A DNA stretch of 64,000 nt. Origin: Xanthostigma xanthostigma (taxonomy: Eukaryota > Arthropoda > Insecta > Raphidioptera > Raphidiidae). Position 1 is the first letter of the stretch, and each line of letters starts with the position of its first letter. Made by a program: the position numbers and the translations under genes. Under the pieces are notes generated by a model. That model did no database searches. It saw only the letters and a list, made by a program, of their open reading frames with translations, and was not told where the DNA came from. Below, in pieces: positions 4,277 to 61,280 of this stretch. Where the stretch lies: contig OY754464.1 of the NCBI GenBank assembly GCA_963575645.1, positions 73,010,948 through 73,074,947 on the forward strand, read 5' to 3'.

Positions 4277-5600
4277 CTAGCTTTTGCCCGCGGTTTCGCT
4301 CGTGCCAATTTTGATGTTGATAGATCAGTCAGTCAGAGTTTCCTTTTATACAGGGTGTCCCATTAAGAATGGGACATAGAACAACCGCAGATTCTCCAAT
4401 TCAAAATAAAACGATTAAGCGAAATATGCTTAGATAAAATGTGACTCGTTTCCGAAATACAGGGTGTTGAAGTTGAAAACTGAAAAATTATTAATGTCCA
4501 TAATTTTTTTAATACACCGTATAATTTTACTCAAAGACTACTGTCAAAATTTTCAATTATAAATTAATAAATATTCTCACAATCGCAACGTGCTTATTAG
4601 GAACTTAACATTACAAATCATAACAAAAAAATTAAAAAAAATAGAATAAAGCTGTTTGGTCGCGAATCTCATTAATTGTAAAAATGAATATTATTAATAA
4701 TAATACAAATAAAAAGTAGGTACATGTCTATCTATCTTTAACTGCGAATATCTCGAAAACCAATGACTTTACAACAAACTAACAAGTGTACATTATTGAC
4801 TTAGAAAATATCAAAAAAATTAAAATTATAGTCAAAATTAAAATTTAGACAGCGGCGTAACATTTAGAAAGGGTACAAGCATTACTTACTCCTGCCGTAC
4901 GCCACTGGTAGAGCGTACTGAACTAATTTTTTTATTGTTAGGTGCATTTTATGATATTTAACAAGTGTGCCGATTTGAGTAAAATTATACGGTGTATTAA
5001 AAAAATTATGGACATTAATAATTTTTCAGTTTTCAACTTCAACACCCTGTATTTCGGAAACGAGTAACATTTTATCTAAGCATATTTCGCTTAATCGTCT
5101 TATTTTGAATTGGAGAATCTGCGGTTGTTCTATGTCCCATTCTTAATGGGACACCCTGTATATACAGATTATATGACTTCTTAGAATTTTTCTGTTATTC
5201 ATGTGTAATAAAATTCTAAATTGAAGACATTCACGTGATCAACGTCCCGACAAACCTTGAAAATGACACCCATGTTGATTTTTGAACTATTTACCTATTT
5301 TCACCCTCTGAAGGGGTTGTTTTTAAAATAGCACGAAACACATGTTTATTTATTTGTTGACAGGAATAATCCTGGGCATTTTCGAATTGATACATCTGTC
5401 TTATGTGATTTCTCCATGTAAATTTTGAATCCCCGTTACACCCTTTTAGGGGTTGACTTTTCAAAAATCTGTTCTTGACGGATGCCTATGTCATAATAAC
5501 TATCTGTGTGCCAAATTTCAGCTCAATCCGTCCTGTGGTTTGAGCTGCGCGTTGATAGATCAGTTTCCTTTTATATATTTAAATAACAATAGATATAGTA
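4277..5600 (-). mobile_element. Helitron-like remnant split by a foldback insertion
   Basis: On the minus strand the block ends in GCGGGCAAAAGCTAG followed by T, the CTAG|T style of a Helitron 3' end. GTTGATAGATCAG followed by TTTCCTTTTATA occurs both before (near 4316) and after (near 5550) the inserted foldback at 4349-5160. The 5' TC end was not found, so the outer boundary is uncertain. Confidence 0.4.
4349..5160. mobile_element. TA-flanked foldback transposon with TACAGGGTGTCCC ends
   Basis: Both ends read TACAGGGTGTCCCATTAAGA inward, and complementarity continues for about 190 bp on each side. The flanks are TA on the left (4347-4348) and TA on the right (5161-5162), a TA-type target. 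No transposase is present. It shares terminal design with the element at 21645-22380. Confidence 0.75.
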
Positions 5601-7550: not shown

Positions 7551-7782
7551 AATTAATAATTATAAATCAACTTTGAAGAAGTTAATTTTTTTCTGAGAGG
7601 TTTCACTGTTCTCAATTCTTCATACATAAACATAGCACACACGGTACATTCTCAAAGATGATTTTCATTTCACCGAGTCTGTGACCTACATTTTGGCGTT
7701 GTTTTAAGTAAAATGAATAAGTAACTAAAACATACAATCAGAAGTACGGAACGACTCGTTACAAATGGCGACAGTTAATCTT

Positions 7783-8229
7783 AAGGCCGCTGCACACGAG
7801 GCTAGAAACGCTGCTAGGAGTTCTGCTAGCCGGTAGGCTGGGTACGAAGCTGGAAATGACGTCACTACGGGCTGCCTTGCTAGCTCAGAAGATAGGTTTT
7901 AAAATTAGAACAGGGGCTATTTTCCCTGCTAGGTCCTCTGCTAGGTATGAACAAGAACCAATCAAGAAGCAGTATCTTTACGTGGGCACTTGAACAAACG
8001 CCCACATGGCGTCATTCTGCCAGACAACAGACACGTTTTGCTCTGTGTTTAATGTTTATATTCGAACTGTCACTGCGCGCGCACCAGATCTATCCACAAA
8101 ACACGCTTGAAAAATAGTCTCGTGTAAAGCGAGCACTTAACAGCAATCAAGAAAACCAGCGCTAGAAAACTAGTAGGCAAAGCTAGCAAGGAATCCAGCA
8201 GCGTTTTTAGCCTCGTGTGCAGCGGCCTT
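7783..8229. mobile_element. MITE with GCTGCACACGAGGCT ends, 447 bp
   Basis: The ends are inverted: GGCCGCTGCACACGAGGCTA on the left and GCCTCGTGTGCAGCGGCC on the right. The subterminal DNA is packed with CTGCTAG/GCTAGC motifs, and an internal TCGTGTAAAGCGAGCACTTA echoes the terminal motif. Relatives: 33477-33926 (inverted), 36728-36937 (partial), 36938-37187 joined to 42473-42675 (split by the Gypsy element), 42905-43095 (partial) and 60897-61280 (3' lost). hAT membership is possible but no duplication was confirmed. Confidence 0.75.
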
Positions 8230-8379
8230 TATGCTATTGTATCAAGTAGCGATATATGTTAGAATTCGCTCAAAGCTATTGGTTCTGAAGCAAATCTGGT
8301 AGAATTTGCTCAAAACTATTAGTTCAGAGGCCGGGCCGCAAACGAAATACATTTTTCAGAATTATATCTATCGCACCCG

Positions 8380-21028: not shown

Positions 21029-21644
21029 AATGACATTTTTTGTTTAAGATATCTCTAGAAATGAAGTTTGATGTTTTAATAAAATTTATGTTGACCAGTC
21101 TGCATTTTTAGTGGGCTGTGAATAAGGTTTCCAATCCTCCTAGATTGCTTGGGAGACTCCGGTAATAATGGTTAACCTCCCGACCTCCCGGGATGCAATA
21201 ATTTCTCCTGTTTTTCTAAAATTATACGCATCTGTCGCTCGCTATGCATGCGGCGCTGATTTTTCTTGTAAAAACTTTTATGATTTTGTGGCAAAAAACC
21301 GTCAAAGCAAGGTAAATATAAATTTAAAAATTACTAAATGATTGAGATTTCATTTTAACCCCCCTCCCTACTCGATTTTTTCAAATTCTCCCAGATTGGT
21401 CCTTTCGAGAGTTGGCAACCCTAGCTGTGGATGAACAAATGAATACCGTTTGTCATTTGGTTTATTTTAAATATGCTACATAATGAAGATTGATTATGTG
21501 CAAATTTAATTACGACCAATGAATTCACTGAGGCAAGTAGCAAAAAATCAGTTGACCTATTTTAATGTTACTTATTGCATTTTATGAATCGTGTGTGGAA
21601 AGTACGCTTTCCTTAAAAAAGTATTATTACAAGTAGAGCCTCTA

Positions 21645-22380
21645 TACAGCGTGTCCCATTTTAATGTCCCACCCCGGATAACTTTTGTCAGTGACCTTGA
21701 ATGAAAAATTGTTTGGTACAAAAGTTGTACAACTTGGAGGGGGACATTCGATGGCACTAATACTTTTGACCTTGGGTATAAGGTTCAAGGTCATTCAAGG
21801 TCAACTTTGTTTTTTTTAATGGAACGTCCTATTTTTGACATCGGCAATCGATTGCGCGTAAAAAAATATGAGACTTTTGTCTGAAACTTTTTTTGAAAAC
21901 GGGCAAATTTTCTCAATTAATTTAGCCTTCAAAATTGAAAATTTTTGAATTTTCAACTCGAGAATGGTGAGATTTTCTTCAAAAACAATAGGGCTTCTCA
22001 TATTTGCATACCAAACATCCTCCCAAAATTTTGTTTCAATCCGTTCATCCGTTTGACCTGTATAGTGTTCACAGATTAACCGAATAACCGACTAACAGAC
22101 TAACAGACGCACAGAGTTTTGCCCGTTCTCGAAAAAAGTTTCAGACAAAAGTCTCATATTTTTTTACGCGCAATCGATTGCCGATGTCAAAAATAGGACG
22201 TTCCATTAAAAAAAACAAAGTTGACCTTGAATGACCTTGAACCTTATACCCAAGGTCAAAAGTATTAGTGCCATCGAATGTCCCCCTCCAAGTTGTACAA
22301 CTTTTGTACCAAACAATTTTTCATTCAAGGTCACTGACAAAAGTTATCCGGGGTGGGACATTAAAATGGGACACGCTGTA
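21645..22380. mobile_element. TA-flanked foldback with near-perfect 255-bp arms
   Basis: Ends TACAGCGTGTCCCATTTTAA and its complement, flanked by TA at 21643-21644 and 22381-22382. The arms appear identical over about 255 bp (for example TTGACCTTGGGTATAAGG against its exact complement), which implies recent formation or arm correction. The 210-bp centre (about 21905-22120) carries a piece of a family-B-like sequence (CAAACATCCTCCCAAAATTT, GACCTGTATAGTGTTCACAG). Same terminal design as 4349-5160. Confidence 0.75.
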
Positions 22381-22984
22381 TAGGGGACTTTGAAAAAATT
22401 GTTGAAAGTCGAAACGCGCATATTTTGTTTGGCTCTTGAACTTGTGCTTGTTTATTTATTTGTAACTATACTGGAATTGTCGAAGAAAACATTTTTATTG
22501 TCTATTTCTGATTTTTTTTTTGTTTCAATTTTCCGCGGTTTCTAGCAAACGCGGATAAAGGCGGCCTACTGCACTTTATTATTACGATTTTCGTATTGAA
22601 AACATGTATTTTTCAGTAGGTAAGTGTTTTTTCTGCAATACATAACTTGCCACTTATTCTAAGTAATGTTTTTTCTCAGCACAAACATAGCATTTTTTAT
22701 CTGTGCCCCGTAGGAATTTACATGATTTCTTTATCTCGTGTTAATTGTTTTTCTACTACCTACGAATTTTAGATTGATTACTGACACACTTTTAGATTAC
22801 ATTATTTTTTATAAGTTGTGATGGTTTTTAAATTAATGTGATAAATAAATATGTGTGGTAGGGAGCTGAAGCGCAAAAAAAGACATGTCGTCCCAACTTT
22901 CTGGCGTCTGGTATACGATATATACCTAAGCTATTTAAATAGGCAGAATATGGACCCATTTTAAGATAAGGTAGGAAAATCGAA

Positions 22985-29500: not shown

Positions 29501-30019
29501 TTAGTGTCCGACCGAAGCTTCGGCTTCGGTCACCTTCGGCTTCGGCCTTCCCTTAGGTTACATCGGAAAATATCAAAACAGTGTCATCATGAGCAAATGA
29601 TACTACGGATCCTTCTATGAATATGTTATACAGATCATTCATGTGTATTAAAAAAAGTATAGGGCCTAGGACGGTACCTTGCGGCACACCATAACTGATT
29701 ATTTGTTCTTCATTGCACTGACCATTCACAGATGCAAACTGTTTCCTGTTTGAAAGGTAACTTACAAACCATCTCATGACCACACCTCTGATTCCAATAT
29801 TGGATAGTTTTTGAATTAGGATCTTATGGGATACTGTGTCGAAGAACTTGGCCAGATCAAGGAAAATTGCCAAATTAAATGTAAACCTTCAATTAAAAAG
29901 TTTTAAAATAATTTATATTATTAATTGTAGCTTGTAGCAGTTGTAGCCAATTTAAACTGAATTTCTTAGGGTTTTTGTTTTCGGTTTCGGCCAGAAATCG
30001 ACCTTCGGTCGGACACTAA
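29501..30019. mobile_element. MITE with TTAGTGTCCGACCGAAG ends, carrying an RT fragment
   Basis: Left TTAGTGTCCGACCGAAG and right CTTCGGTCGGACACTAA are exact inverted repeats. GGCTTCGG motifs fill the left subterminal region. A reverse-transcriptase fragment sits in the middle. No 8-bp duplication was found. Confidence 0.65.
29553..29873 (-). pseudogene. Non-LTR retrotransposon reverse-transcriptase fragment
   Basis: A 107-codon open frame with RT motif A (FLDLAKFFDTVSHKIL), motif B (GVPQGTVLGPILFLI, then NDL) and motif C region (SFAHDDTVLIF), in the style of Jockey/CR1-like RTs that normally carry F/YADD. An extra codon (His) separates A from DD, which would disturb the catalytic loop. N-terminal endonuclease and C-terminal RT parts are missing. 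The fragment is flanked on both sides by MITE sequence, so it was captured or inserted there. Not functional. Confidence 0.85.
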
Positions 30020-33279: not shown

Positions 33280-33476
33280 CACGACGTGTGTGCGTTATCC
33301 AGTAGCTGACGCCCATATTGGTTTATGCGACAGATACCGGTAAAGATCGGGAGAAAGACTTAAACACTACGGTGTGCGACATAATATACGTCTGTCTGAC
33401 TTATTATACTCTCTCATGCGCATGTCCTTGAATGGATGCGCATCATTTGCAGCGTCAGTTTGCACATGGAACTAAA
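33280..33476 (+). repeat. Direct repeat, left copy (about 195 bp)
   Basis: CCAGTAGCTGACGCCCATAT through AAGACTTAAACACTACGGTG to ATGTCCTTGAATGGATGCGC. It recurs in the same order and orientation at 33928-34145 on the far side of the MITE copy. Confidence 0.7.
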
Positions 33477-33926
33477 GATCGCTGCACAAGAGACTAGAAA
33501 CGCTGCTAGATTTGCCTGCTAGTTTTCCAGCGCTGGTTTTCTTAATTGCTGTTAAGTGATCGCTTCACACGAGACTATTTTTCAAGCTTGTTTTGTGGAT
33601 AGGTCTGATGCGCGCGCAGTGACAGTTCGAATATAATCACAGAGCAAAACGTGTATGTTGTCTGACTCTGAGCAGAACGACGCCATGTTGGTTTGTGGGC
33701 GTTTGTTCAAGTGCCTACGTGACATGATACTGCTTCCTGATTGGTTCTTGCTCATACCTAGCAGCAGTTCTAGCAGGGAAAATAGCCCCTGTTCTAAATT
33801 TAAAACCTACCTATCTTGTGAGCTAGCAGGCCACCCTGCAGTAACGTCATTTCCAGCTTCGTACCCAGCCTACGTGCTAGCAGAAATCCTAGCAGCGTTT
33901 CTAGCCTCGTGTGCAGCGGTCTTAAG
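33477..33926 (-). mobile_element. GCTGCACACGAGGCT MITE, inverted copy
   Basis: Inverted relative to 7783-8229. The left end ATCGCTGCACAAGAGACTAG is diverged, the right end CTAGCCTCGTGTGCAGCGGT is good. The internal GCGCGCAGTGACAGTTCGAA and GGAAATGACGTTACTGC (minus) match other copies. The 99-codon frame at 33655-33954 lies in it and is not a gene. Confidence 0.7.
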
Positions 33927-36727: not shown

Positions 36728-36937
36728 GACGCAGCACACGAGGCTGGTTTTGCCGCTAGATTTCATGCTTGAATGGTCTGCTATAGGTTTCAAGTGTGCC
36801 GTGGCGATGGGTTTCGTAATTGACTTTTATGTGTTCGCTTCACACGATGCGTGCATTGAAGCTTGCTTTGTAGATGGGTTTGTTTGTGGGCGCAGTAATG
36901 CTAATAAAAGTGAACGTTTATTGCATATACCTAAAAA
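36728..36937 (+). mobile_element. GCTGCACACGAGGCT MITE, partial copy
   Basis: It begins ACGCAGCACACGAGGCTGG and has the internal TTCGCTTCACACGATGCG. It stops where the next copy begins (ACCGCTGCACACGAGGCTGG). The sequence is closest to 60897-61080. The open frame here is MITE sequence. Confidence 0.65.
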
Positions 36938-37187
36938 CCGCTGCACACGAGGCTGGAAACACTGCTGGGACTTCTGCTGACCGGTAGACTGGGTACGAAG
37001 CTGGAAATGACGTCACTGCGGTCTCGCCTGCTAGCTCACAAGATATGTTTTAAAAGTAGAACAGGGGCTGTTTTCTTTGCTGGGTTCGCTGCTAGGTATG
37101 AGCAAGAACTAATCGGGAAGCAGTATCAGTCACGTTGGCGACTTGAACAAACGCCCACAAACAAATACTATGCCATAGTGTGTGTTC
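36938..37187 (+). mobile_element. GCTGCACACGAGGCT MITE, left half (target of the Gypsy insertion)
   Basis: Left part of a MITE copy up to GTGTGTTC, where the LTR begins. It continues at 42469 as GTTCTGTTCAGAGACAATAA. The complement of the uninterrupted sequence is seen at about 61091-61118 (TTATTGTCTCTGAACAGAAC then ACAC). Confidence 0.8.
37184..37187. repeat. 4-bp target-site duplication GTTC (left)
   Basis: Direct repeat with 42469-42472. Four-bp duplications are normal for several Gypsy lineages. Confidence 0.85.
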
Positions 37188-37734
37188 TGTAACTTCAACT
37201 TTTCTTCTCTTTAATTTCGTTATGAGTATGCGCAGTGGAGGTGATATTTAATAATTGTGAACGAGAAGAATTGGTTTAAAGTTACCTTTTTATTTAAATA
37301 ATATTTTAATAATTGTAAGTTTATAGGTTGACTTGACCTTATGGTTTACGATGGTGAAAAATTTAAATTTTAAATTTCCGTCTTGCCGGCTCGTAGCGCG
37401 AACGACTTAACAATTTTTGTTACAATTGCGTATCGTATTGAATAATTTACGGTTAATAGACGATCTTCAATATTGCACTGCGATATGACCGGTTCGGACG
37501 CCAGTTAAAATATTTCTCCTTTTTTTGGAAAAAAAATCTCTTTCAAAATTTAGCGAGAATGCAAATCAATTTAGTTATAATAGACGTAACATAAATGTCA
37601 ATTCAACCTATAAACTTACGTAATTAGTAATTGGTATAAATGTACACTATTTGACAAAATTTTAAATTAAAATAAAAAATAAACAGATACATAAAAATAG
37701 TAATTAAATTGTAAGGATAAATATTATCGTTACA
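37188..37734 (-). repeat. 3' LTR (element sense), 547 bp
   Basis: Begins TGTAAC and ends GTTACA, imperfect inverted termini with TG...CA. It matches 41922-42468 base for base as far as I can align it. TTTATT at 37289-37294 is AATAAA in the element sense, a candidate poly(A) signal. TSD GTTC lies outside. Confidence 0.95.
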
Positions 37735-37736
37735 GG

Positions 37737-37747
37737 CTCCTCCCCTT
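37737..37747 (-). other. Polypurine tract
   Basis: AAGGGGAGGAG on the minus strand, two bases (CC) before the 3' LTR. This is the expected plus-strand DNA primer site for reverse transcription. Confidence 0.85.
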
Positions 37748-37767
37748 AAGCTTGAAGGTGTGATTTC

Positions 37768-40700
37768 CTAAGAAATATTTGCTCTTAACTGATCGATGTG
37801 AGCTCGGTAGGTTTGGCCTGTTTCGGGGTCTTCAAGTTCGCATGAAACTGGTGAGGTAAAGCGTGTTATGCGTCTTGGCGTTGACCAACGTGGTGTAAAC
37901 TTTTGGTCTTCGTCGGGACCCGGGACGTTGTGCATGCGTTGCAACACCAGTTGATTAATGTTAAAATGATGTTCGCGCGGGCGACTTGCATTATAATACC
38001 TCGCGTACTTAGCATGACTCTGGCGAATTGCTCTTTGGATTGTCGCTGTGGATGGTTTATCTTCATCGTCTAAGGCTAAGTCGATTCCCCAGTGTCGGTC
38101 TAAAGGAACAGGAAGTTCTCGACCTAGAAATACCGAAGCCGGTGATGTTCGAGTCGTTTCGTGGTACCCAGCGTTGTGTGATAACTTGACGTATGACACA
38201 TACTTGTCCCAGTCTTTGTGAGATGCTTCATATTGTTTAAGCATGATGGTGACGGCTGCTTTTATATCGCGGTTCGGTCGTTCGACCATGTTTCCAGATG
38301 GGTGATACGGCGTCGTGGTTACATGATTGATGCCCCATCGAAGACACATTCCAGAGAACTGATGACTCGTAAAGCAACGAGCGTTGTCGGAGACAATGAT
38401 TCGTGGAGGGCCGAAACTCGACCACATTTCTACAAGTTTTGATACGGTGACGGCCGATGACGCTTTTCGCACAGGAATAATATCCAACCACTTCGAAAAC
38501 GAGTCGATTACGACGAGACAATATTTATTATTTCTAGACGTGTTGATTAGTGGACCAACATAGTCAATGTAAAGCTTGTGCCACACTGATGTTGGGGGAG
38601 TTGAAGCTAGTGGAGCTCCTTCTCGTCGCTGAGGATTCTTACACTGTTGGCACAATTGACAGCTGCGTACATGATCTCGCACATCTTCGTATAGCCGGTT
38701 CCACCAGAATCTTTTCGCGATTTGTCGATAAGTTTTGGTTATACCTTGATGAGCGCTGGTATGTGAATTGTGAAAATAATATATAATCATCGGTTTTAAA
38801 TTACTCGGAACGATTATACGCTTGAGACCTCGTCGTCCAACTTTCTTCATCAAAATTCCGTCTTTAATTGCGAAGTTTTTAACATCTTCACCATTTTTAA
38901 TTCTGGTGAGAATGAGTCCGCAATCAGGATCCGAGTTCTGATGATTCTGAATGGATATGAACGAGAGGGGTACTTCGTCCAGTAGATTTAATTGTTGTAC
39001 GTCCGATTGTTCAAGAAACACTTCTTCATTATACAGACGGGATAAAGCGTCCGCAATTACATTTGTGCTTCCCTTTATGTGAACTGTCTCGTAATCAAAT
39101 TTTGCCAATTTCAGTAGCCACCTACCAACTCGACCAAGATTCTTAGGATGCTTATGAAGCCACGTCAATGCGGCGTTATCTGTTTGGAGTATGAAATGTT
39201 GCCCCTGAAGAAAATGTTTAAAACGATCTAGAGCCCATACAATCGCACAAGCTTCCCGTTCATAAGTTGTATAATTACGCTGAGCATCGTCGAATTTTTT
39301 GCTAGCATATTGTACTGGATAAAGCCCATCTTCGTATCTTTGAAGAAGAACTCCACCCATAGCATAAGAGCTCGCGTCTGTTTGAACGACGAACGGTTTG
39401 TTAAAATCTGGAAACTTTAAAATCGGTGCGGTGGTTAGCGCTCTTTTTATTTTGTTGACAGCGTCAATTTCTTCAGGGCCCATTTTGAATTTTACTCCCT
39501 TTCTTTTGAGGCGATGTAGTGGGGCTGCTAATGTTGAAAATCCGGGTATATATTTTGCAAGAAATCCGGCCATTCCCAAAAATGATTGAACCTTTCGCAA
39601 ACTGTCTGGCACTGGTAAGTTCTTAATCGCTTCAATGCGTTCGGGATCAATAGATAGACCTTCGGCTGAAATCACGTGACCGAGGAACTTGATACGCGAT
39701 CGACATAGTTTCATTTTTTCTGGGTTAACCGAAAATCCCACGTCTTGAAGTCGCTTGAAAACGATATCCAAATGCTGAAGATGTTCTTCCAGGCTGGACG
39801 AATGTATTAATAAATCGTCGAAATACGGTATAAGAAATTTGAAGCGCAAATCAGAAAATACGTCTTGAATTATTCTATTTAAAGCTTGTGGAGAAATACT
39901 GAGGCCAAATGGCACCTGATTGAATTCGTATTGCCCGAGCGGTGTAACGAAGGCAGTGTACTTCTTTGAAGACGAAGACAAGTTGATTTGGTAAAAGGCT
40001 GACGTTAAATCGAGGATTGTGAATACGGAAGAACCATGAAGTGACTGGAATAGACTTTCCATGTGTGGAGGCGGATAGGCGTCAAAAATGATTTTTTTAT
40101 TAAGTCGCCTATAGTCGATACACAGACGATGTCCTCCTCCTTTCTTCTTCAAGAGAAAGGCTGGAGCTCCGTAGGGAGAACGGCTCGGTCGGATTATGTC
40201 TTCATTCAACAATTTGAGAATGTGATCTTCCATCTCCTGTGCTTTCACTGGATTGAGTGGATATGGTGCCGATCGCACTGGAATATTGTCTGTTACATAA
40301 ATGTCGTAAGTATAATCTTTTACGTTGCCAACTTTATCCGAAAATATTTGTTTGTATTTGCTGATTATCGTCGTAAGTCTTCTATTGTCGTCTTCAGACA
40401 TTTTGAATTTTTCTTCTGTTATGCAATGAATATAGTTCTGTGGAACTTCGCCCGGAGATACAAAAGGAACATGACATTTCTTATCGAACTCGAACGAAAG
40501 TGTTTTGGAGCGGAAATTAATACATGCTTGCATTTTTCTGAGTGTTTGATTTCCAATTAAAAACGTGTATGATAAATGATTGATGATTAAAAATGTAATT
40601 TTCCATGTAAACTTATGAATTTTTACGATGGCTGTATACTGTTGATTGACGTGAACATGGCTTCCATCTGCTAATATTACAAATGAGTCGGTTTTTTCGA

Positions 40701-40869
40701 TTTTGCCAAATCCATTCTTCGATAATTGTTTAGCTGCTGATTTAGCGCAATAGTTAGTTGAGGCGCCAGTGTCAAGAAGAGCTTGAAATATATTACTTCC
40801 CACTGAAATGCTTATAATGGGAGTAATAAACGTTGAAAACTTCTCGACACCAACCGCTATTAGTTTTTT
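37768..40869 (-). CDS. pol: Gypsy pol: protease-RT-RNase H-integrase (via -1 frameshift)
   Basis: Uninterrupted frame. It opens at the slippery site (about 40869); the first GTG is at 40803 and no ATG start is expected because pol is made as Gag-Pol. Residues counted from that GTG. Protease: DTGAS, Asp11. RT about 185-360: D265 in ILDLTSAF and the catalytic YFDD at 327-330 (YxDD in the FDDLL form). RNase H about 465-590: D476 (TDASS), E517, D542 (TDNAA), D585. Integrase about 670-900: HHCC zinc finger H678/H685/C715/C718 and DDE triad D747, D806, E841, with 34 residues between the last two. C-terminal GPY/F-like module about 970-1008. 1011 codons plus the upstream junction is normal for Gypsy pol. 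No stop or frameshift inside. Copies genomic RNA to DNA and integrates it. Very sure of family, not of activity. Confidence 0.95.
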   Translation of the reverse strand, partial: KKLIAVGVEKFSTFITPIISISVGSNIFQALLDTGASTNYCAKSAAKQLSKNGFGKIEKTDSFVILADGSHVHVNQQYTAIVKIHKFTWKITFLIINHLSYTFLIGNQTLRKMQACINFRSKTLSFEFDKKCHVPFVSPGEVPQNYIHCITEEKFKMSEDDNRRLTTIISKYKQIFSDKVGNVKDYTYDIYVTDNIPVRSAPYPLNPVKAQEMEDHILKLLNEDIIRPSRSPYGAPAFLLKKKGGGHRLCIDYRRLNKKIIFDAYPPPHMESLFQSLHGSSVFTILDLTSAFYQINLSSSSKKYTAFVTPLGQYEFNQVPFGLSISPQALNRIIQDVFSDLRFKFLIPYFDDLLIHSSSLEEHLQHLDIVFKRLQDVGFSVNPEKMKLCRSRIKFLGHVISAEGLSIDPERIEAIKNLPVPDSLRKVQSFLGMAGFLAKYIPGFSTLAAPLHRLKRKGVKFKMGPEEIDAVNKIKRALTTAPILKFPDFNKPFVVQTDASSYAMGGVLLQRYEDGLYPVQYASKKFDDAQRNYTTYEREACAIVWALDRFKHFLQGQHFILQTDNAALTWLHKHPKNLGRVGRWLLKLAKFDYETVHIKGSTNVIADALSRLYNEEVFLEQSDVQQLNLLDEVPLSFISIQNHQNSDPDCGLILTRIKNGEDVKNFAIKDGILMKKVGRRGLKRIIVPSNLKPMIIYYFHNSHTSAHQGITKTYRQIAKRFWWNRLYEDVRDHVRSCQLCQQCKNPQRREGAPLASTPPTSVWHKLYIDYVGPLINTSRNNKYCLVVIDSFSKWLDIIPVRKASSAVTVSKLVEMWSSFGPPRIIVSDNARCFTSHQFSGMCLRWGINHVTTTPYHPSGNMVERPNRDIKAAVTIMLKQYEASHKDWDKYVSYVKLSHNAGYHETTRTSPASVFLGRELPVPLDRHWGIDLALDDEDKPSTATIQRAIRQSHAKYARYYNASRPREHHFNINQLVLQRMHNVPGPDEDQKFTPRWSTPRRITRFTSPVSCELEDPETGQTYRAHIDQLRANIS

Positions 40870-41831
40870 GAATTTGATCTCTCTTGATTCGCTTCTGGTT
40901 GCTCTCTTCTATATTGTCGTCTGCGACACTCTTGTATGCTGTGTCCATTGCGTTTACAGTAGTTGCAGAATTTAGTCGGTGAAGCTGAAGTCGCTGAAGG
41001 ATTTGGAGAAGCTGGCATATTAAATTGCTGCTCTCGGCGTTGAATTTGGCTGATTTCAACTCCTATTTGGCTCAACGCTTTTAAATCTGCAGGAATACTT
41101 CGAAATTTGATATAATTGAATGTGTTCCAATTCACATGAGCCCAAATCATGTTAACTAAATTTAGCTCTGGTATTTGTAGATTCAGAACCGTGGCTTTCA
41201 TGTTTATGTCTCTGATAAATTGACAGAATGATTCATCTTCACGCTGTACTCGTTAAACCATTTTATCGGTTAAGAAAATTATATCAGTGGATGACAAATA
41301 TGTATTTAAGATGCGCGATTTCAGCGTGTTCCAAGAAGTATGACCTTGTATTTGGCTACTCCACCAGAATCGAAATTCTTCTAATGTTTTACCTATTAGA
41401 TAATACAACAGTTGATTTTCTGGAAGCATGCGCGAGTCAACGATATTTTGAATCTCTTGCATAAATATGATCAACTGTTCAGGAGACGAGCCATCGCAGA
41501 CAGGAATTGATGATGTGATCTTCTCAACGTCCATTTTCAGTTTGATAGGAAAAGGAGATTCTTCATTGTCATTTCTTGCAAGGACTGTCGTTTGTCGAGT
41601 TGCTTGACTGATTTCCTGAACCGTGTCATATATTTGTCTAGATACGTGTAGACCAGCTCTTAGAAATTCTAGCGTTCTTGGAGACGTAACCTGCGTTTCT
41701 TGAGCGGTGTTTGAATTTTGATTTTCTTGATACACTGTGTTTGTATTTGTAGAAGCTTCCATCGGGGAATTTATTTCAGCGCCGCGACCTTGTGGAGAAT
41801 GATTGACCTGAGGTCGGCGACGAGTAGACAT
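40860..41831 (-). pseudogene. gag: Gypsy gag with one in-frame stop, CCHC zinc knuckle
   Basis: Gag packages the RNA into virus-like particles. The frame starts at ATG 41831 and runs 323 codons to TAA at 40860-40862. Codon 193 (41253-41255) is an in-frame TAA; reading continues in the same frame on both sides, so this is a single nonsense change, not a frameshift. The N-terminal half contains the usual helical Gag core (SSPEQLIIFMQEIQ... style segment). A CCHC knuckle, CNYCKRNGHSIQEC, is at codons 289-302, followed by a basic tail. The last codons overlap the slippery heptamer. Upstream untranslated leader is about 70 bp after the PBS. A second methionine at 41201 could start a short C-terminal piece only. 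Confidence 0.9.
40863..40869 (-). promoter_or_regulatory. -1 ribosomal frameshift heptamer A AAA AAC
   Basis: On the minus strand TCA AAA AAC TAA ends gag. A-AAA-AAC fits the X-XXY-YYZ rule exactly in the gag frame, and the stop follows directly. A -1 shift continues AAA AAA CTA ATA into pol with no stop. A downstream stimulatory structure was not folded. Confidence 0.8.
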
Positions 41832-41904
41832 TATTTGATTTTAAACACTCTTATTTCATTAAATTTACTTAAGTATTTTTATTATTTAATTTTTATTTAT
41901 AACT

Positions 41905-41919
41905 CTTGCTCTGCTACCA
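41905..41919 (-). promoter_or_regulatory. Primer-binding site, initiator-Met tRNA type
   Basis: Two bases inside the 5' LTR the minus strand reads TGGTAGCAGAGCAAG. From memory, this is complementary to the 3' end (CTTGCTCTGCTACCA) of insect initiator methionine tRNA over 15 nt. Confidence 0.75.
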
Positions 41920-41921
41920 TT

Positions 41922-42468
41922 TGTAACTTCAACTTTTCTTCTCTTTAATTTCGTTATGAGTATGCGCAGTGGAGGTGATATTTAATAATTGTGAACGAGA
42001 AGAATTGGTTTAAAGTTACCTTTTTATTTAAATAATATTTTAATAATTGTAAGTTTATAGGTTGACTTGACCTTATGGTTTACGATGGTGAAAAATTTAA
42101 ATTTTAAATTTCCGTCTTGCCGGCTCGTAGCGCGAACGACTTAACAATTTTTGTTACAATTGCGTATCGTATTGAATAATTTACGGTTAATAGACGATCT
42201 TCAATATTGCACTGCGATATGACCGGTTCGGACGCCAGTTAAAATATTTCTCCTTTTTTTGGAAAAAAAATCTCTTTCAAAATTTAGCGAGAATGCAAAT
42301 CAATTTAGTTATAATAGACGTAACATAAATGTCAATTCAACCTATAAACTTACGTAATTAGTAATTGGTATAAATGTACACTATTTGACAAAATTTTAAA
42401 TTAAAATAAAAAATAAACAGATACATAAAAATAGTAATTAAATTGTAAGGATAAATATTATCGTTACA
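41922..42468 (-). repeat. 5' LTR (element sense), 547 bp
   Basis: TGTAAC...GTTACA, identical by eye to the other LTR. It would contain the promoter and RNA start. I could not assign TATA or initiator with confidence. Confidence 0.95.
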
Positions 42469-42472
42469 GTTC
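42469..42472. repeat. 4-bp target-site duplication GTTC (right)
   Basis: Partner of 37184-37187. Confidence 0.85.
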
Positions 42473-42675
42473 TGTTCAGAGACAATAAACATGCACTTTT
42501 GTTACCGTTCTATCACTGTGCGCGCACCGAATCTACCTGCAGAGCGAGATTGTAAATACGTCTCGTGTGAAGCGAGCACATTATAGCAATTAAAAAAACC
42601 AGGACTAAAAAACTAGTAGTGAAATTAAGTAAGGAACCTAGCGGCAAATCCAGCCTCGTGTGTAGCCGAATTAAC
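42473..42675 (+). mobile_element. GCTGCACACGAGGCT MITE, right half
   Basis: Continuation of 36938-37187 after the Gypsy element: TGTTCAGAGACAATAAACAT to the end CAGCCTCGTGTGTAGCCGAA. Internal CGTCTCGTGTGAAGCGAGCA repeats the terminal motif. Confidence 0.75.
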
Positions 42676-43095
42676 CCTCTTATATTACTAGTTTTCGTAA
42701 GAGGAAGAGAGACAGCATTACTGCATAACTCGATTCGTTATGCGCAAGCGTGCGACTGTAGTGGGGAATTGGGTGAGTGAATGCCCCATTCTCGAACATG
42801 CGCATAACATTTGAGATCTAAATGATGGCGACAGTATGTCTGCATCGTTGGGTCTTCATCCTTTTTCAGACCTCTACTAGCAATATAGGAGTATCAAGCG
42901 TATGATTTACTGTTTCTGAATAGAATGCACACTATGACGCCATGTCTGTTTGTAGGCGTTCGTCAACGTCGCCCACGTGACGAGATACGGTTTCCTGATT
43001 GGTTCTTTATCAAAACAAGCAGACAAACAATCACGAAAAATACATCTTGTGACCTTGCACGCGAGCCCGCAGTAACGTCATTTCCATCTTTGGAT
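42676..43095. repeat. Diverged MITE fragments
   Basis: 42690-42895 resembles 34010-34318 (CTCTTATATTACTAG and ACTAGCAATATAGGAG ends). 42905-43095 is an internal piece of the GCTGCACACGAGGCT MITE (AATGCACACTATGACGCCAT, CGCAGTAACGTCATTTCCA). Confidence 0.45.
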
Positions 43096-44079: not shown

Positions 44080-44540
44080 ACTGGTTCGAATTGAAAAAAA
44101 TGTTTTTGTTGGATAGCCCATTTATCGAGGAAGGCTATAGGCTATATAATATTACGCTACGACCAATAGGAGCGGAGCATCAAAGAAAAATGTTGCAAAA
44201 TTGAATTGAATTGAATGACACATACTTGGCTCTATCAGGTGGCCGAAAATATAAGCAGTACTAACAGTACTAACCATTTATCGAGGAAGGCTATAGGCTA
44301 TATAATATTACGCTACGATCAATAGGAGCGGAGCATCAAAGGAAAATGTTGCAAAATTGAATTGAATTGAATGACACATACTTGGCTCTATCAGGTGGCC
44401 GAAAATATAAGCAGTAGGTACTAACAAAAGAATGACACATACTTGGCGCCATCAGGTGCCCGAAAATATGAGCAATACTAACAATAGAATGACACATACT
44501 TGGCGCCATCAGGTGGCCGAAAATATAAGCAGTACTCTTT
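44080..44540 (+). repeat. Chimeric tandem array: Helitron head joined to family-E units
   Basis: A 156-bp unit occurs twice (44119-44274 and 44275-44427). Each consists of a Helitron-head piece (ATTTATCGAGGAAGGCTATA, GGAGCGGAGCATCAAAG) followed by a family-E piece (GACACATACTTGGCTCTATC, AGGTGGCCGAAAATATAAGC). Two more copies of the family-E sub-unit alone (period about 54 bp) follow to 44540. The minus 75-codon frame here simply reads the repeats. Confidence 0.7.
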
Positions 44541-58019: not shown

Positions 58020-58837
58020 TTTAACCGACGAAAAACAAAAACGGAGGAGGTTCTCAAGTCGACGCGTATATTTTTTTTTTTTTATTTATTTTTTTTTTAT
58101 TTATGTATGACCACGCATAACTTTTTACAGAGCAGTCCGATTTTGATAATTTTTTTTTTGTTTGAAAGGGTATACCCCGAAGTTGGTCCCATATAAATTT
58201 GGTAAAAAAATTCCAACCCTAAGGGTAGGAAAACAGGGGATGATTGATTGTTCACTCACTGATTGTAATGAATGACCACACATAACTTTTTACAGAGTAG
58301 TCCGATTTTGATAATTATTTTTTTATTGAATAGGGTATACCTTGAGGTTGGTCTCATATAAATTTGGAAAAAAAATTCTTACCCTAAGGGTAGGAAAATA
58401 GGGGTGATTTATTGTTCACTCATAGATTTTCACGCTGAGTTGTGTATTACAATTATAAATTATATAGCCACAAAAAATTATAAAATAAAAACTTTTTAAC
58501 AAAAAAATTAAACCGCCGAAAAACTGAAAAGCAAAAAATAATAAATCTTTTTATTTAACTAAGTAGTTGAACGTACGTGACAGTCTAGTAATTTTGAGTC
58601 GGCGTCAAACAATCAATGAACAAAGATCACTAAAAGAAATAACCAAATCAAATTAGAGAACTCTGGTGAACTCTCAGAGATTTCCGGCGAAGGATTGTTG
58701 ACGCCGACTCAAAATTACTTAGATATACTAGACTGTCACGTACGTTCAACTACTTAGTTAAATAAAAAGATTTATTATTTTTTGCTTTTCAGTTTTTCGG
58801 CGGTTTAATTTTTTTGTTAAAAAGTTTTTATTTTATA
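58020..58837 (+). mobile_element. Family-C repeat, copy C3, with internal tandem duplication and palindromic tail
   Basis: Head TTTTAACCGACGAAAAACAA and CGGAGGAGGTTCTCAAGTC. A segment of about 150 bp is present twice (58107-58255 and 58269-58425: ACATAACTTTTTACAGAG, AGTCCGATTTTGATAAT, TACCCTAAGGGTAGGAAAA). The tail 58487-58837 is a palindrome with about 130-bp arms (CGTACGTGACAGTCTAGTAA; TTGAGTCGGCGTCAA). Confidence 0.65.
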
Positions 58838-60525: not shown

Positions 60526-60896
60526 AGAAGAACGATATAGGTAAGCAGTGTGCAAAATTAGAAACGAATTGAATACCTACAATCATATTTAAAAAATAAG
60601 TTTGTAAAGTGATAATTATTATACTTATTTAGTGCGAATAATTCGCACAGGTCACACTAGTTTTAAACTTAAAACTTGCGAGCAGTTGTTTATTTGGGCA
60701 CTTCCATGGCTTCCCCAATACAAACCCCCAGTCCTTAGTTTCTAAACCAAGAACTTTTAAAAATATTAATTGAATTTTCAATTTATTATTAAATAATGGC
60801 ATATTGAAAATAAAAAAATTAAAAATTTTCTCAGTTCTGAAGCTGGGGCCTTGATAAAAACTTAGTCATGGCTATTAGTCTCTTAAATTTAACCAA
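60526..60896. other. No gene identified
   Basis: AT-rich. Nothing recognised. Confidence 0.45.
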
Positions 60897-61280
60897 AAGG
60901 CCGCTGCACACGATGCTGGGTTTGCCGGTAGACTCCTTGCTAGATTTGGCTGCTAGGTTTCAAACGTGCTGCGACGCTGGATTTCCTGATGCTTCAATGT
61001 GTTCGCTTCACACGATGCGTCTTTTGAGGCTGGTTTTGTCAATGGGTTTGGTGCGCGCGCAGTGACAGTTCAAATCTTAAGTGGACGCTTATTGTCTCTG
61101 AACAGAACACACACTATGACGTCATGTTTGTGGGCGTTTGCCCATGTCGCTTACGTGACAAAATACCGTTTTCTGATCAGCAGAGAAGCAAGCACGCGAA
61201 ATAGACCCGGTTCTAGTGACGTCATTTCGATTCTCTCAGCTAGCATAAGTCCTAGCAGTAATTCCAGCGGCGAAACAAGA
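60897..61280 (+). mobile_element. GCTGCACACGAGGCT MITE, right end lost
   Basis: Begins AAGGCCGCTGCACACGATGC. It has the internal CTTCACACGATGCGTC, GCGCGCAGTGACAGTTCAAA and TATTGTCTCTGAACAGAACA, the last being the uninterrupted counterpart of the Gypsy insertion site. The 3' inverted end is not recognisable beyond AATTCCAGCGGCG. Frames here are MITE sequence. Confidence 0.7.

Follow-up and report, generated by a model that had tools for sequence, protein, structure and literature searches.

A young Ty3/Gypsy retrotransposon copy with an interrupted gag in the genome of Xanthostigma xanthostigma

We analysed a stretch of 64,000 nucleotides from Xanthostigma xanthostigma (Raphidioptera, Raphidiidae; assembly GCA_963575645.1, contig OY754464.1, positions 73010948-73074947 of the forward strand), hereafter the window, in which an element of 5281 bp occupies positions 37188-42468 on the minus strand. 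Judged from its sequence, this element is very probably an env-less long terminal repeat (LTR) retrotransposon of the Ty3/Gypsy group (Metaviridae, Metavirus-type), recently inserted into a dispersed repeat and belonging to a family that has recently moved. It is an ordinary member of its kind, the copy in the window is itself gag-defective, and a specialist would find little in it that surprises. Its use is as a case that is clean and can be dated: a young family of LTR retrotransposons in which one copy is defective, the sisters are mosaics and the empty site can still be seen. The main value lies in annotation and in a warning: a perfect LTR pair around an open pol does not make a copy intact.

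The two LTRs end in TGTAAC...GTTACA, enclose an internal region of 4187 bp and, compared exactly, differ at 0 of 547 bases. They are flanked by a 4-bp duplication, GTTC, whose two copies match exactly (Table 1). Within the window, the insertion point is spanned by four other copies of the dispersed repeat, of which the cleanest, at 61159-60903, runs through it uninterrupted with a single GTTC. This empty site shows that 4 bp of target were duplicated on insertion, and it speaks against a misassembled junction; integration would have proceeded through a 4-bp staggered cut. The absence of differences between the LTRs limits their divergence to at most 0.0055 (about 0.55%) at 95% confidence. With 2.8e-9 or 1.6e-8 substitutions per site, rates that may not be those of the host, the insertion would be no older than about 980,000 or 170,000 generations or years, respectively. 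An earlier note on this DNA had described LTRs of 547 bp without a difference, an exact GTTC duplication and a young insertion; all three descriptions hold. The host repeat itself lies at 7780-8231, 33473-33926, 36931-37165 with 42469-42666, 42896-43090 and 60896-61177, and its copies are ~67 to 86% alike.

The copy is not intact, because an in-frame stop at codon 193 interrupts gag. An autonomous intact copy would combine uninterrupted gag and pol frames, and here pol alone is uninterrupted. Among the ten full-length copies that we found in the assembly, the gag frame of 323 codons is uninterrupted in seven, two more are shortened by frame shifts elsewhere in gag, and none of the nine copies outside the window has a stop at codon 193. 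As far as its sequence can tell, the window copy would either have been disabled after insertion or have been made with the error and moved by proteins of sister copies. We regard it as unlikely that the copy is fully functional, its stop being either an error of sequencing or subject to readthrough. Only a single codon is affected and the frame is open on either side of it, as an error would have it, but the assembly is contiguous (28 contigs), and the absence of the stop from all nine other copies means that readthrough is no family trait.

Pfam recognises in pol, in this order, reverse transcriptase (RT), RNase H and both the zinc-binding and the core domain of integrase; in Gypsy elements, integrase stands last in pol. 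Compared with solved structures, the RT-RNase H piece has its best match in 4ol8 (named RT/RNase H, E 5.8e-70), which we take to be Ty3, and another in 7q5b (named Ty3-G Gag-Pol, E 1.5e-69). The motif DTGAS, the motif YFDD, the acidic residues of RNase H, an H-H-C-C pattern and a D,D-34-E triad are all present and presumably have their usual roles; the protease is recognised solely through DTGAS. Nine of the ten full-length copies have pol open across its last 476 codons. The pol stop stands 33 bases from the 3' LTR, and no env therefore follows integrase. The gag and pol frames overlap, with pol in -1 relative to gag, and we infer that the heptamer A AAA AAC functions as the frameshift site; an excerpt of PMC5009743 counts A_AAA_AAC with the -1 heptamers at which mammalian ribosomes shift most readily. 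The LTR would drive transcription of the element, and translation of the first frame would yield Gag, with Gag-Pol arising through -1 ribosomal frameshifting at this heptamer.

Both priming sites lie two bases from their LTR. The primer-binding site (PBS), TGGTAGCAGAGCAAG, is separated from the 5' LTR by AA, and the polypurine tract (PPT), AAGGGGAGGAG, consists of 11 purines. Initiator tRNA-Met would prime reverse transcription: the PBS coincides over all its 15 nt with the start of a tRNAiMet probe published in PMC4506996 (excerpted text), the probe being that of Drosophila and not the host's own tRNA. Such a match would fit an insect or another arthropod as host. With the tRNAMet(i) PBS engineered into HIV-1, as given in part of PMC1797187, only the first 11 bases of TGGTAGCAGAGCAAG are shared. 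Eight of the ten full-length copies contain the 15-nt PBS of the window copy, while the other two (5' ends L019 and L041) have a second type that starts with TGGTAGCAAAGC, not TGGTAGCAGAGC, and may perhaps point to another primer tRNA. The ICTV profile of Metaviridae comprises an internal region of 3 to >15 kb flanked by two homologous LTRs, an 18-nt PBS after the 5' LTR that can pair with the 3'-terminal bases of a host tRNA, a PPT of some ten purines ahead of the 3' LTR, a gag that encodes capsid and nucleocapsid, and a pol that encodes protease, RT, RNase H and integrase (PMC7879559). The element shows every tested feature of this profile, save that its capsid is unrecognised by Pfam and its PBS match is 15 nt, not 18. 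Metavirus is distinguished there by the lack of env from Errantivirus, which has it, a criterion that the profile itself rates as inconsistent (PMC7879559).

The other claims that the earlier note made for the copy fared unevenly. Its assignment to Ty3/Gypsy agrees with the Pfam domains of pol and with 4ol8 and 7q5b as best structure matches, and PBS and PPT are in place as it had stated. Its account of pol as open over more than 1000 codons with all catalytic residues is right for the open frame of 1046 codons and for the motifs, with the protease identified by motif only. "Nearly intact", by contrast, fits the open pol and is misleading for the copy, whose gag stop at codon 193 of 323 the note overlooked.

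We searched the host assembly (623 Mb) with LTR and gag queries; scoring covered 40 of the 67 LTR candidates from the first look, and the genome counts are accordingly lower bounds. The LTR query gave at least 42 matches, namely 40 LTR places and two slivers that we left uncounted as places, and the family comprises at least 10 full-length copies (LTR pairs) and at least 20 single LTRs. With gag as the query all 15 candidates were scored, and they comprised 10 copies at 95 to 100%, all within the 10 LTR pairs, and five short matches at 71 to 72%. Exact 4-bp duplications flank every one of the 10 pairs and, as expected of solo LTRs, 16 of the 19 single LTRs with definable ends; L033, with an end that could not be set, was excluded from this count and from the LTR alignment. 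Six pairs have no substitution between their LTRs, two have one, one has three and one has 12, with a 1-base gap in one of the zero-substitution pairs and a gap in one of the one-substitution pairs. LTRs of different copies are mostly 1 to 3% apart, whereas at most one substitution separates the LTRs of a pair in eight of the ten copies, which indicates recent insertions from several lineages. In the multiple alignment, six substitutions and additional gaps separate the window LTR from that of its nearest other copy. The earlier note had proposed a search for copies above 98% identity; among the candidates scored, the best other LTR reaches 98% (rounded) and the next 97%. On this sequence evidence the family, which is small and in which seven copies outside the window have an open gag, looks recently active. 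Of the note's claim that it is very likely active or was until recently, the second half is supported; activity at the present day would be an extrapolation to the family from its sequences. Elsewhere in the window, a search with the best 120 of 863 pol proteins and two gag proteins detected no pieces of related elements at E 1e-4.

Divergence among the copies is mostly synonymous, with ratios of nonsynonymous to synonymous differences (pN/pS) of 0.249 for eight gag copies and 0.138 for nine integrase copies; two frame-shifted gag copies and one deletion-bearing integrase copy were omitted, and the window stop codon was skipped. These low values indicate that the lineages from which the copies derive retained functional proteins, and by this measure the coding parts of the family are under purifying selection. 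The copies are also mosaics, as discordant distances in gag and integrase indicate: across the ten copies, the two distance matrices correlate with r -0.118, and 0 of 2000 permutations gave a value as low. LTR and integrase distances likewise disagree (3/2000 permutations), and two copies outside the window have LTRs without a substitution between them, yet gags that differ at 16 sites. The mosaicism would most simply be read as the outcome of template switching, after RNAs from different copies had been packaged together, with ectopic conversion as the alternative source. A more far-reaching proposal is that the family is a small mosaic population that moves by sharing, in which sisters package gag-defective copies like that of the window, recombination within the particles joins RNAs from different lineages and a long conserved fold-back in the LTR (see below) has a role in, for example, packaging or dimerisation; we consider this rather doubtful.

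Several observations weigh against this reading of the element and its family. Neither gag part matches a Pfam family, a single CCHC pattern being seen, and the protease and RT part of pol was read in the window copy only. RNA structure 3' of the slippery site is unexceptional (z-score -1.38, 20 of 200 shuffles as good), and we therefore claim no frameshift stimulator. LTR and gag distances disagree only weakly (122/2000 permutations). Finally, one of the ten full-length copies (L019/L021) has LTRs that are 12 substitutions and seven gap events apart within an exact target duplication, and L019 and L021 have different copies as their nearest relatives. This divergence would reflect conversion or exchange rather than age, and conversion or exchange in the family means that LTR identity is no pure clock. 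It also lends some substance to the idea that gene conversion overwrote one LTR of the window copy and that the insertion is older than it looks. We hold this to be quite improbable: pairs with no substitution in six and at most one in eight would require conversion nearly everywhere, and the target duplications are still exact in all ten. Assemblers can render LTR pairs identical, but an artefact of assembly, with both LTRs merged into a single sequence or the element put in the wrong place, is very improbable, given the exact duplication, the empty site in a related repeat, the LTR-pair anatomy with its own exact duplication in ten of ten copies and the LTRs that remain 1 to 12 substitutions apart in four of them. 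A recent insertion stays the preferred reading of the window copy.

Table 1. Features of the element and of its insertion site, in window coordinates
Feature	Position	Strand	Remarks
Target-site duplication GTTC, left copy	37184..37187	.	exact match to 42469-42472
3' LTR	37188..37734	-	547 bp; 0 differences to 5' LTR
Inverted repeat in 3' LTR	37315-37337 with 37597-37619	.	same as in 5' LTR
Polypurine tract AAGGGGAGGAG	37737..37747	-	followed by CC, then 3' LTR; same tract in 10/10 full-length copies
pol stop codon	37768-37770	-	
pol open frame	37771..40908	-	1046 codons between stops; protease motif, RT, RNase H, integrase
gag stop	40860-40862	-	
Candidate slippery heptamer A AAA AAC	40863..40869	-	directly before gag stop; shared by 10/10 full-length copies
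gag, second part	40863..41252	-	130 codons, same frame; one CCHC zinc-knuckle pattern
In-frame stop interrupting gag	41253..41255	-	codon 193 of 323
gag, first part	41256..41831	-	192 codons from ATG (at 41831); 81% identical to P0121
Primer-binding site TGGTAGCAGAGCAAG	41905..41919	-	15 nt, complementary to 3' end of Drosophila initiator tRNA-Met
5' LTR	41922..42468	-	547 bp
Inverted repeat in 5' LTR	42049..42353	.	arms 42049-42071 and 42331-42353; 22/23 pairs
Target-site duplication GTTC, right copy	42469..42472	.	exact match to left copy
Unoccupied site with one GTTC, in related copy of flanking dispersed repeat	60903..61159	-	alignment

Protein relatives were sought in a collection of 5.8 billion proteins. 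One of them, P0001, is 80% identical in RT across the entire 361-aa query and only 51% in the protease region. The nearest gag, P0121 (323 aa), is 78% identical to the second part of the window gag and, like it, ends in K-N, but is uninterrupted. An IMG/VR scan with the RT piece gave eight stretches that fit the pattern, none of which was confirmed as a relative. Lineage names for insect Gypsy elements given in the excerpted part of PMC3286476 are gypsy, Osvaldo, Mag, mdg3, mdg1 and CsRn1. Saccharomyces Ty3, one of the two best solved-structure sequence matches of the RT-RNase H piece, uses an initiator tRNA-Met primer and has a single zinc finger in its nucleocapsid, according to a portion of PMC5371799. 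The window element resembles it in its PBS, which appears to be of the initiator tRNA-Met type, and in its one CCHC pattern. The two differ in that the window element has a slippery heptamer of the -1 type, whereas Ty3 uses +1 frameshifting. In crustaceans and other metazoans, GalEa-type Copia elements have the PBS TGGTAGCAGAGC, complementary to Drosophila tRNA-Met, according to excerpts of PMC3587641 and PMC5445492, and share the PBS start of the window element. They belong to the Copia superfamily, whereas the window element has integrase after RT/RNase H and Ty3/Gypsy-like domains.

Each LTR contains an inverted repeat with arms of 23 bp that lie 259 bases apart. Its score of 20 was reached in 0 of 400 controls with arms at least 50 bases apart (largest 15), whereas in a laxer control with 60 random sequences the highest score was 24 (mean 12.6), probably owing to self-palindromes that were counted. 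The LTR strand folds far better than its shuffles (z-score -4.64, 0/100). At least 20 of the 23 Watson-Crick pairs are kept in 36 of 39 aligned LTRs, and over all 39 the arms are conserved (3 of 197 placements as low); no such conservation is seen when the comparison is confined to the 20 LTRs that belong to full-length copies (88 of 197). We dropped the idea that the inverted repeat is an inserted miniature inverted-repeat transposable element, inspection by eye having shown no duplication at its ends.

Rfam and tRNA scans across the 64-kb window found nothing, and a Pfam search of 10 of its 44 frames of at least 85 codons gave one match, below the cut-off. A frame at 29553-29888 (minus strand) has a translation that we take to resemble a piece of a non-LTR reverse transcriptase. 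Two further segments, 4347-5162 and 21639-22386, have near-identical long inverted ends of 189 and 269 bp (98.9%), with CAGGGTGTCCC or CAGCGTGTCCC near their tips, and look from their sequence like young fold-back DNA transposons. Tandem arrays occupy 44118-44534, with units of 156 bp and 57 bp, and 58103-58422, with units of 165 bp.

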